Shown here one piece after another: positions 314 through 7,059 of a stretch of 37,839 nt of DNA (position 1 is the first letter of the stretch; every line of letters starts with the position of its first letter). The notes beneath the pieces were generated by a model. The model searched no databases. It was not told the origin of the DNA and was given only the letters and a program-made list of their open reading frames with translations. Made by a program: the position numbers and the translations under genes. Source of the DNA: a virus; the IMG/VR virus record IMGVR_UViG_3300014913_000034, positions 1-37,839 of that record. One strand, written 5' to 3'.

Positions 314-787
314 ATGGCTTATGATGAAAGTCAATTTATAATGACCAATTTCGATCTACTGGATAACGAAGAGTTTCTTAGAAAAAATAGGTGCAAGTAC
401 ATATTGTATCTATTAATAAGAAGATCGTCAGTTAGAAAGCCACATAAAGGAGACTTAGGACTATATAAAAATTTCTGGAAAAAAGGATATGTGGCAGCAT
501 CAAGACCGGTGTCTAAACTAGCAGAGCTGCTCGGATATAAGAGCAGCTCTTCTGTTAGGAAGTGGATAGACGAGCTGGTGAGAGATAAGGTGTTTGTCTT
601 GGGCGAAGTGTATGTAAATCCAGGTCGGCCGCAGAATGTATTTATATTGGGAATACACAATTCTGCTCCAAAACCGGACTATAAAGAATATTTTTATATA
701 GATAATCCAGGACTGATTGACGAATTTGGTATTGGTGGTATGGTAGATTTTTACAAACTGCTCAAATCTGGCAGTTCAAAGTGCTAA
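314..787 (+). CDS. Winged-helix DNA-binding protein (regulator or replication initiator-like)
   Basis: The protein has 157 residues. Residues about 28-110 look like a winged helix-turn-helix: a helix CKYILYLLIRRSS, a second helix SKLAELLGY followed by SSSSVRKWIDELV as the likely recognition helix, then a wing DKVFVLGEVYVNPGRPQNVFIL. This layout is common in phage replication-initiation and regulatory proteins. ATG 314 follows AAGGAG at 296-301. The last codons overlap the first copy of a 16-bp repeat (769-784) that recurs at 792-807, next to a TATAAT box and a dyad. This suggests that the protein binds there, either to control its own region or as an initiator on iterons. The fold is inferred from the helix pattern, not from a database hit. 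Confidence 0.65.
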   Translation: MAYDESQFIMTNFDLLDNEEFLRKNRCKYILYLLIRRSSVRKPHKGDLGLYKNFWKKGYVAASRPVSKLAELLGYKSSSSVRKWIDELVRDKVFVLGEVYVNPGRPQNVFILGIHNSAPKPDYKEYFYIDNPGLIDEFGIGGMVDFYKLLKSGSSKC

Positions 788-4674: not shown

Positions 4675-5262
4675 ATGTCAGGTATTCCGTACGTTATCGA
4701 GAGAGATGAGAAAAATCGGGAAAGGGTTTACGATCTTTATTCACGTCTTTTGAAGGATCGGATTATTTTTGTTGAACGCGGTTTTAATGATGATATGGCA
4801 AACGCTGTCGTAGCACAGCTTTTGTTCCTGGAGTCCGCTAGCAAAGAGCGTGATATTTATATGTATATCAATTCTCCAGGCGGTTGGATCACGTCTATGT
4901 ATGCCATTTATGATACTATGCAATATGTGACCCCAGATATCATTACGGTCGGTTTCGGCCAGGTAGCTAGTGCAGGTAGCTTCATACTGACAGCAGGCAC
5001 CAAGGGGAAACGTTTTGTACTTCCTAACACTGAGGTCATGATTCACGAGCTTAGTGGTGGATATCAGGGCAAGGCAACAGATATGGAGATCCATCTGAAG
5101 CAGTCTCTCAAATTGCGCGACCGCATGGCGCATCATTACGTTGACATGACAGGACAGCCGCTCGACAAGATTAAGAAAGATATGGAGAGGGACTATTACA
5201 TGTCTGCACAAGAGGCCGTGGACTATGGCCTTGTCGATGCTATTCAGACAAAGAAGAAGTAG
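4675..5262 (+). CDS. clpP: ClpP-like serine protease, full length
   Basis: The 195-residue protein aligns with bacterial ClpP over its whole length. The catalytic triad is complete: Ser99 in GQVASAGSF, His124 in VMIHELSGG and Asp173 in MERDYYM. The oxyanion strand YINSPGGWITS and the handle-region pattern GYQGKATDMEIH are also present. ClpP forms two stacked heptamers that degrade proteins fed by ClpX or ClpA/C. The N-terminus begins at the position of mature ClpP, so no propeptide is visible. No Clp ATPase gene occurs in this window, so it would use a host unfoldase or one encoded elsewhere. It stands about 12 kb before the head genes, which favours a role in host protein turnover over a classical prohead protease, but virion processing cannot be excluded. 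Confidence 0.93.
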   Translation: MSGIPYVIERDEKNRERVYDLYSRLLKDRIIFVERGFNDDMANAVVAQLLFLESASKERDIYMYINSPGGWITSMYAIYDTMQYVTPDIITVGFGQVASAGSFILTAGTKGKRFVLPNTEVMIHELSGGYQGKATDMEIHLKQSLKLRDRMAHHYVDMTGQPLDKIKKDMERDYYMSAQEAVDYGLVDAIQTKKK

Positions 5263-5277
5263 GAGGTTTTATGTTTT

Positions 5278-6060
5278 ATGGAGTATAGAAAAGAGGTACG
5301 TAATAAGCCTGGGCGCCAGTTAGGTACGTCCAGTCCTAGAGATGTACGTAGACGCCAGCAAGAAAAAGGATCAGATGTGGCGTTGATAGTAGAGCTCCAA
5401 AGACAAATCTCCGATCTAAGAGATCAGTTTAAAGTTGGTACTGGCGGAATCACGCCAGAGGATGTGGACGCAGAGATTAGAAAATCTGTGAAAGCAGCAG
5501 TCGCAGAAACTAAAGCATATTATGAGCCTCTTCTCGCCGAGTCTAAGCGTAGGGAAGAGGTTTTGCGCGAAAAGCTTAAGAATCTGAAAGATCAAGCTGG
5601 ATTATCTCTTAGTGAAGAGCGCGAGAGCCATAGACAAGAGGTGGAGAAGAGGACAAGAGATCTTCAAGAGCGTTATAACAGTAAAGTTAGTAGCTTAGAA
5701 GACAGATTGAGAATTGCAGAGGATAAACTTGAGGATAAACAGCGGCAGCTCGATGATGTAAAGGCTGAGAAGGACGAGATGATTAAGAAGCTGTTGGAGG
5801 AGCACACTAAAAAACTAGAGGCACTTACCGAGAGAGTTTCTATGGAGAAATTGGGCGTGGATGATCCAGATAGACCTTCTATGGAGGACGTATTTGTCGA
5901 TCCTCTGGAGGATGGTGCAGGATCGGATTTAGAGGCACATATAAAGTACGAAGAGGAAGTATATCTGGAAGATGCTTCTACCAAGAAGAAGAAAAATATG
6001 TCCAGCAAAGTTAATAGATTGAGAGATTTGATGGGGTCTTTTGCTGACAAGGAGGATTAA
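5278..6060 (+). CDS. Long coiled-coil protein, possible partner of the actin-like ATPase
   Basis: The 260-residue protein has a basic N-terminus (EYRKEVRNKPGRQ and DVRRRQQEKG), which could bind DNA. A nearly continuous coiled coil runs from residue about 35 to 190, then an acidic linker around 190-235 and a basic tail ending in RLRDLMGSFADKED. I see no enzymatic motif. Its start follows AGGAGG just after clpP, and the ParM/actin-like gene begins three bases after its stop with a ribosome binding site inside this gene. The pairing of a DNA-binding-like coiled-coil protein with an actin homologue resembles a segregation adaptor plus filament, but that role is inferred from order only. A structural or scaffold role is also possible. 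Confidence 0.7.
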   Translation: MEYRKEVRNKPGRQLGTSSPRDVRRRQQEKGSDVALIVELQRQISDLRDQFKVGTGGITPEDVDAEIRKSVKAAVAETKAYYEPLLAESKRREEVLREKLKNLKDQAGLSLSEERESHRQEVEKRTRDLQERYNSKVSSLEDRLRIAEDKLEDKQRQLDDVKAEKDEMIKKLLEEHTKKLEALTERVSMEKLGVDDPDRPSMEDVFVDPLEDGAGSDLEAHIKYEEEVYLEDASTKKKKNMSSKVNRLRDLMGSFADKED

Positions 6061-6063
6061 AGG

Positions 6064-7059
6064 ATGAGCAATAAAGGTTTAGATGTTGGTACCAACATGT
6101 TAGTTGCTGCTCATATGGACAAGGAAGGAAATATCAAATATAAGATGCAGCGCGACGCCTTCTACAAAATTGTACCAAAATCACAAGTTAATGAGAACAG
6201 CATAAAAACATCGTTGGAAAAGAGAGGCGCCAATTTCATCCGCAACAAAGAGGGTGAATTTATTGTCGTCGGAGAAGATGCGTTAGAAATAGCCATCGAA
6301 AGAAACGACATTGCAAAAAGACCTTTGCGCAAAGGCGTTTTGTCGCCAAGAGAAAAAGACTCTTTGCCAATGTTAAAACTCATAATTGAGAGTTTAGTTG
6401 GTCAAGGAGCCGAAGGCGATAAGGTCGTTTATTCAGTTCCTGCCCGGCCGGTAGATGGTAAATTCGACATCGTATATCACACCGTAATGTTAGAAAATTA
6501 CCTTAATGGTATGGGCTATCAAGCACAACCAATCAACGAAGCATTTGCTATTGCACTATCAGAACTTCTTGATGATGGTTTGACAGGCATATGCCTAAGT
6601 TACGGTGCAGGAATGACAAACACAGCTGTTGTACATCAAGGTGATCCACTCGTGGAATTTAGCTTGACGCGAGCAGGCGATTATATTGACACGGCAGTTG
6701 GTAATGCGTTGGATATTTCTCCTAGTTTAGTACAGTTAGAGAAAGAGGCTGGAATAGATCTTATGAATCCTAAGGATAAGATAGGAGAAGCTGTATCTGT
6801 ATATTATACTACACTAATAAACTATACACTAAAGAACATCGCATTCGAGCTTGAAAAAAGAAAGAAAGACCTTCCTGTGTTTAGGAAGCCAGTACCGATA
6901 GTGGTATCTGGTGGCCTTACGCTGGCAGAAGGTTTTGTAGAAAAGGTTGTTAAGTCCTTAGAAATCATACCTTTTCCAGTAGAAATTAAGGAGGTAAGAA
7001 GGGCAGAAGATCCGATGAGGGCCGTGGCAACCGGCGCATTATTGGGTTCTCAGCTCTAA
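6064..7059 (+). CDS. Actin/ParM-like ATPase
   Basis: The 331-residue protein shows the actin-Hsp70-ParM ATPase layout: phosphate-1 loop GLDVGTNMLVAA (5-16), connect-1 helix near 155-168 (QPINEAFAIALSEL), phosphate-2 SYGAGMTNTAVV (179-190), adenosine motif IVVSGGLTLAEGF (279-291) and connect-2 EDPMRAVATGALL near 315-327. The usual aspartate in phosphate-2 is replaced in LSYGAG, which is unusual. Such proteins polymerise with ATP and move plasmid or phage DNA, or position it in the cell. AAGGAGG at 6049-6055 supports ATG 6064. The coiled-coil gene upstream is the natural candidate partner. I infer a filament-forming role; a non-filament Hsp70-like role is less likely given the length. Confidence 0.85.
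   Translation: MSNKGLDVGTNMLVAAHMDKEGNIKYKMQRDAFYKIVPKSQVNENSIKTSLEKRGANFIRNKEGEFIVVGEDALEIAIERNDIAKRPLRKGVLSPREKDSLPMLKLIIESLVGQGAEGDKVVYSVPARPVDGKFDIVYHTVMLENYLNGMGYQAQPINEAFAIALSELLDDGLTGICLSYGAGMTNTAVVHQGDPLVEFSLTRAGDYIDTAVGNALDISPSLVQLEKEAGIDLMNPKDKIGEAVSVYYTTLINYTLKNIAFELEKRKKDLPVFRKPVPIVVSGGLTLAEGFVEKVVKSLEIIPFPVEIKEVRRAEDPMRAVATGALLGSQL

Follow-up and report, generated by a model that had tools for sequence, protein, structure and literature searches.

The gene pair at positions 5278-7059 of a tailed-phage genome fragment (the window, that is the whole stretch of 37,839 nucleotides analysed here, in which terminase, portal, major head protein, holin and endolysin genes are recognisable) encodes a phage branch of the known volactin family of actin-like proteins together with its own adaptor, and the new point is a short C-terminal tail of the adaptor that is shared with the volactin partners of other lineages. 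We propose, with a probability of about 60%, that the two proteins form a filament module, most likely a late one, in which the adaptor would grip volactin with this tail and hold a cargo at its N-terminus.

The preliminary description of this DNA had placed a coiled-coil gene directly before an actin-like gene, and this layout is confirmed: both frames are open on the plus strand, three bases (6061-6063) lie between the stop codon of the first and the ATG of the second, and an AGGAGG ribosome binding site for the second gene is found inside the first. The pair is part of a run of co-directional genes that also holds those for lysis, packaging and the head, and inspection of the DNA within 1 kb of it for local repeats revealed nothing remarkable. 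About 40 related viral contigs have the same two genes in this order, which is therefore not a chance arrangement. Positions 1-25000 of the window gave no megablast match in the phage collection. The genes and elements of the module are as follows.

4675-5262, plus strand: ClpP, canonical ATP-dependent protease subunit subfamily (Pfam PF00574, E=1e-74; NCBIfam PRK00277 above cut-off)
5278-6060, plus strand: adaptor gene, 260 amino acids, with a basic N-terminal motif, a long coiled-coil rod and a conserved C-terminal tail
5284-5358, plus strand: adaptor N-terminal motif Y.K....GR.L...PRD..R, residues 3-27, likely cargo-binding end (conservation)
5455-5847, plus strand: rod, predicted as one continuous helix, residues 60-190 (AlphaFold2)
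5872-6036, plus strand: C-terminal tail RP.ME.VFVDP....LEAHI....V.RLRDLMG, residues 199-253, proposed volactin-binding element (conservation, tail profiles)
6050-6055, plus strand: ribosome binding site AGGAGG for the volactin gene, within the adaptor gene (sequence)
6064-7059, plus strand: phage volactin (actin-like ATPase), 331 amino acids (PF25216 over residues 3-327)
6595-6621, plus strand: phosphate-2 loop LSYGAGMTN, a volactin hallmark (S179, G181, G183 and N186 invariant in 42 volactins)

Judged by its sequence, the product of 6064-7059 is a member of the Volactin family and not of ParM, with which it had first been compared. It matches PF25216 over its full length with 208 bits (cut-off 35, E=3e-61), while the ParM and StbA models of Pfam and NCBIfam gave no match at E<=1. 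As a specificity control, the PF25216 cut-off was exceeded in only one of 14 control genomes, that of Haloferax volcanii, and all 42 aligned relatives of the phage protein also match the model. Neither the actin nor the adaptor has a family in PHROGs at E<=0.01. Membership of the MreB/MamK family was rejected, the MreB_Mbl model reaching 24.9 bits, under its curated cut-off of 27. The predicted fold is nearest to the MamK filament (Z 27.6, rmsd 2.8, 291 aligned), followed by BeeR (26.2) and MreB (about 25); a PDB profile search likewise returned MamK and MreB, and a fold search against BFVD yielded mostly distant Hsp70-type matches. The nucleotide-site residues that form invariant columns of the volactin alignment (GLD.GT, Glu159, S.G.G..N and GG) are present in the phage protein. 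The changed phosphate-2 loop, which had been read as the sign of a diverged family, is indeed found as LSYGAG at residues 178-183, followed by MTN, but it is no oddity of this phage: Ser179, Gly181, Gly183 and Asn186, together with Glu159 at the catalytic position, are invariant across the 42 aligned volactins, phage and archaeal, so that the altered loop is a mark of the whole family.

The first 30 residues of the adaptor carry a net charge of +6, in agreement with the basic end reported for the coiled-coil protein, and contain a motif with the clade consensus YNK..GR.L..GPRD.Q.R, in which Y, K, P and R are conserved at 97%, 95%, 92% and 89%, respectively; the N-terminus is predicted to be disordered. 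The coiled-coil nature is also borne out, residues 60-190 being predicted as a single helix with pLDDT mostly above 95. The rod varies in length among the relatives, whole proteins having 193-450 amino acids, and its PDB coiled-coil matches, which are many and unrelated, were dismissed as carrying no meaning. The tail of about 55 residues follows the pattern FIDP...LESHI...V.KLK.LLG, with P209 and L248 conserved at 100%. Pfam gave no DNA-binding family for the adaptor at E<=1 and no match to PF23600 (DUF7139), and only the tail is common to the adaptor and the DUF7139 proteins. Of the segregation-like adaptor and filament first suggested, an actin with a coiled-coil adaptor was retained and the ParM family was not; the adaptor has no recognisable ParR-type DNA-binding domain. 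The volactins of three loci (L019, L020 and L022) have an N-terminal extension, FNKT.GPQ..PK, which is similar to the adaptor motif YNK..GPRD.Q, as if volactin and adaptor docked to the same thing.

Within the window clade, an adaptor homologue occupies the position immediately before volactin in 39 of 42 loci, with inserted genes among the exceptions seen, and ClpP is found two or three genes before volactin in 38 of these loci; the ClpP gene next to the cytoskeletal module is conserved before the adaptor. A profile search with the adaptor, in which a closer subset of the adaptor sequences served as query, the full alignment being too variable, returned 11 relatives, all 11 of them on contigs already known to carry volactin. 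In loci L065, L077, L190, L218, L254 and L025, homing-endonuclease-like or other foreign genes are inserted between partner and volactin, and adjacency therefore understates the pairing.

The tail could also be followed into other lineages. When the 5259 ORFs of other loci were scored with the window-clade tail profile, the top ORF was adjacent to volactin in 34 of 81 loci, with 5.2 expected, and a profile trained on nine large-phage partners ranked an ORF at most 1.5 kb upstream of volactin first in 53 of 64 held-out contigs, with 6.6 expected; the window-clade profile ranked the upstream ORF first in 26 of the same 64. A single tail scores low across lineages, and the case is one of enrichment among loci that are not independent. 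Ahead of the tail the partners differ: some have a coiled coil, those of L048, L061, L063, L066, L052 and L055 have one membrane helix, those of the large phages have a small N-terminal domain, and those of haloarchaea and Methanosarcinales have the membrane domain DUF7139. The large-phage partners share no family in PHROGs or Pfam, and their module lies among genes that look structural. In the Omnitrophota loci (L090-L104), the gene preceding volactin encodes a coiled coil with an IDNPLLQS motif, whereas the ORF that scores best with the window-clade profile, and holds the tail-like sequence, is another one, located some 1.5-2.6 kb downstream of volactin. In one large-phage group (L073, L081, L084, L189, L203, L204 and others), a gene of about 220-260 amino acids with the motif W..PT.Y....GPP..P ... 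DNLLQ..ADKHE.FVYLL.QR often lies between the tail-bearing partner and volactin.

The haloarchaeal test set comprised 49 genomes, 33 of them with a strong volactin. By our own reading of the scan results, DUF7139 lies directly upstream of volactin on the same strand in 25 of the 33, and all 25 of these volactin-linked proteins bear the tail, usually twice (one was missed by the pattern and is evident by eye). In the eight genomes in which the genes are unlinked, one DUF7139 paralogue bears the tail, and none of the 23 DUF7139 proteins in 15 volactin-free genomes does so. Tail profiles trained on phage sequences only split the DUF7139 proteins that go with volactin from the volactin-free class with AUC values of 0.999 and 0.998, and the real haloarchaeal tails score above their own residue shuffles. 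The tail-bearing DUF7139 proteins are probably one paralogous group, and the genomes are consequently not independent. At the level of sequence, what the tail tracks is volactin, rather than the DUF7139 domain or the adjacency of the two genes.

Volactin relatives are numerous among viral contigs, with 497 found in one profile scan and at least 573 in another, the two sets overlapping. Many are on contigs of 200-500 kb, which agrees with the likeness first drawn to the filament systems of large phages, and a further two relatives come from huge-phage records of 485 and 595 kb. On a phage contig of 297 kb there are two volactin genes, and a separate tail-bearing partner stands before each of them. 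In the genome scan, cellular volactins were found in Halobacteria, Methanosarcinales, Omnitrophota, Planctomycetota, Magnetococcales, Desulfobacterales and others. In several Halobacteria (G048, G051, G055, G066 and G068-G070), an open frame of unusual length, 767-1258 amino acids, gives another volactin match that is more divergent than the first, and may encode a large fused protein.

In the proposed module, volactin is expected to polymerise with ATP; dynamic volactin filaments in cells have been shown for Haloferax only (PMC10869688). The tail, ending in a short amphipathic helix, would grip volactin, probably in a hydrophobic groove or at the filament end, by likeness to the ParR-ParM and arcadin-2-crenactin pairs; ParR and arcadin-2 bind their own actins in a hydrophobic groove, arcadin-2 by its C-terminal helix (PMC5173319). 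The coiled coil may dimerise or act as a spacer, and the basic, disordered N-terminal motif is the likely cargo end. From its place among the genes for lysis, packaging and the head, the pair would most likely act late, positioning capsids, DNA or an assembly site. Models of the adaptor alone and of a read-through adaptor-volactin fusion were compared by pLDDT and secondary structure; the tail helix has a pLDDT of 85 in the fusion and 77 in the adaptor alone, a weak difference, and a short strand at adaptor residues 219-221 appears in the fusion model only. The recurrence of the tail beside or with volactin in hundreds of viruses and in haloarchaea points to a shared way of hooking filaments to cargo. 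Tentatively, and at slightly less than even odds, we suggest that one short tail is a general volactin-binding element in phages, archaea and bacteria, a docking tag that is reused on coiled coils, on membrane anchors or on virion-associated domains, and that large phages organise infected cells by means of volactin filaments with adaptors that bear this tail, in parallel to the PhuZ tubulin spindle.

Other roles for the pair have to be weighed against a filament module that tethers cargo. The adaptor could regulate polymerisation by sequestering or capping volactin, in the manner of arcadin-2 towards crenactin. Arcadin-2 is built to the same plan, a variable region followed by a conserved C-terminal helix, with its gene next to that of the actin (PMC5173319), and this speaks for such a regulator; we consider this role unlikely, as the N-terminal parts of the partners are conserved within clades and are swapped for membrane helices or other domains between lineages, which suggests tethering. 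It is also conceivable that the phage pair disturbs the host cytoskeleton, volactin or the tail competing with host volactin or MreB, since volactins occur in Omnitrophota, Planctomycetota, Desulfobacterales, Magnetococcales and archaea. The tree of 96 proteins, though, places the window volactin in a clade of 38 members, all of them viral (support 100/98), which is distant from the cellular volactins and has its own partner, and we regard such interference as very improbable. A further role, plasmid-style segregation of the ParMRC or AlpACS kind, would have volactin move phage DNA via the adaptor on a centromere-like repeat, and two features near the start of the window bear on it.

314-787, plus strand: gene of a winged-helix/HTH-like protein, with its end inside the repeat array; candidate for a DNA-binding partner or for a late activator (weak HTH matches)
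754-822, no strand assigned: three tandem 23-bp units, each palindrome-centred (TGCCAATATTTGGCA type), then a TATAAT element

A search for a centromere-like repeat did find this tandem palindrome array, which may equally be a late-promoter operator. Matches of the 314-787 product to HTH families are weak in the window, and relative L034 has an HTH_36 match at 8e-6. In related phages (L007, L010, L013, L015, L019-L022, L024, L027, L028, L030, L034 and L037), the HTH-like gene is likewise followed directly by 2-3 palindromic units of 22-25 bp, unrelated in sequence from phage to phage, and in most loci of the window clade volactin lies 2-5 kb downstream of the array. A strict array score picks out 9 of 20 loci and none of 458 other gene ends, and misses the array of the window, which carries mismatches. 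The palindrome of a 189-kb relative is found nowhere outside its array, and a 144-kb relative has two further sites, with two mismatches. Such an array after an HTH-type gene, and the operon of adaptor and actin itself, would suit segregation, as would the position of alpS, which likewise lies in the promoter region of its own operon (PMC5539076). On the other side, the adaptor is without a known DNA-binding domain, the partners in other lineages are membrane proteins, and TATAAT follows the array in 11 of 20 loci (44 of 458 other gene ends) ahead of a long co-directional operon, which makes a late-promoter operator the simpler reading. The array by itself could be a late-promoter operator or else a site of the centromere-like kind, and as a role for the pair we hold segregation to be quite unlikely.

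The paper that named volactin described its binding factors as unknown (PMC10869688); the tail now provides a candidate volactin-binding element, and the tail-bearing DUF7139 protein that accompanies volactin becomes a candidate partner in an archaeon amenable to experiment. Large phages commonly carry volactin genes, and the open-access literature searched describes only tubulin-based cell organisation for them. If true, the docking-tag reading would join the phage and archaeal cytoskeletons by a common docking rule.

Among known systems, Volactin itself (VolA, HVO_2015, Haloferax volcanii; PF25216) belongs to the same family over its full length and has the same invariant nucleotide-site residues, including S.G.G..N, but the phage member is 33-34% identical to the haloarchaeal volactins and has a coiled-coil adaptor instead of a DUF7139 membrane protein. 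ParM-ParR-parC of plasmid R1 resembles the proposed phage module in combining an actin, an adaptor whose C-terminus docks on it and possibly an iteron site, and differs in its actin family and in that the phage adaptor has no known DNA-binding domain. AlpC-AlpA-alpS of prophage CGP3 also comprises a phage-encoded actin and a co-transcribed adaptor, and AlpA too is without homology to ParR (PMC5539076); the phage volactin matches Volactin and not the ParM-type family, a contrast drawn from that match. Crenactin and arcadin-2 offer a variable protein with a conserved C-terminal helix in the gene cluster of an archaeal actin, a likeness in plan without an established sequence relation, and arcadin-2 depolymerises crenactin. 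The PhuZ spindle of nucleus-forming jumbo phages is, like the proposed module, a cytoskeletal filament of large phages, although it is built of tubulin and not of actin.
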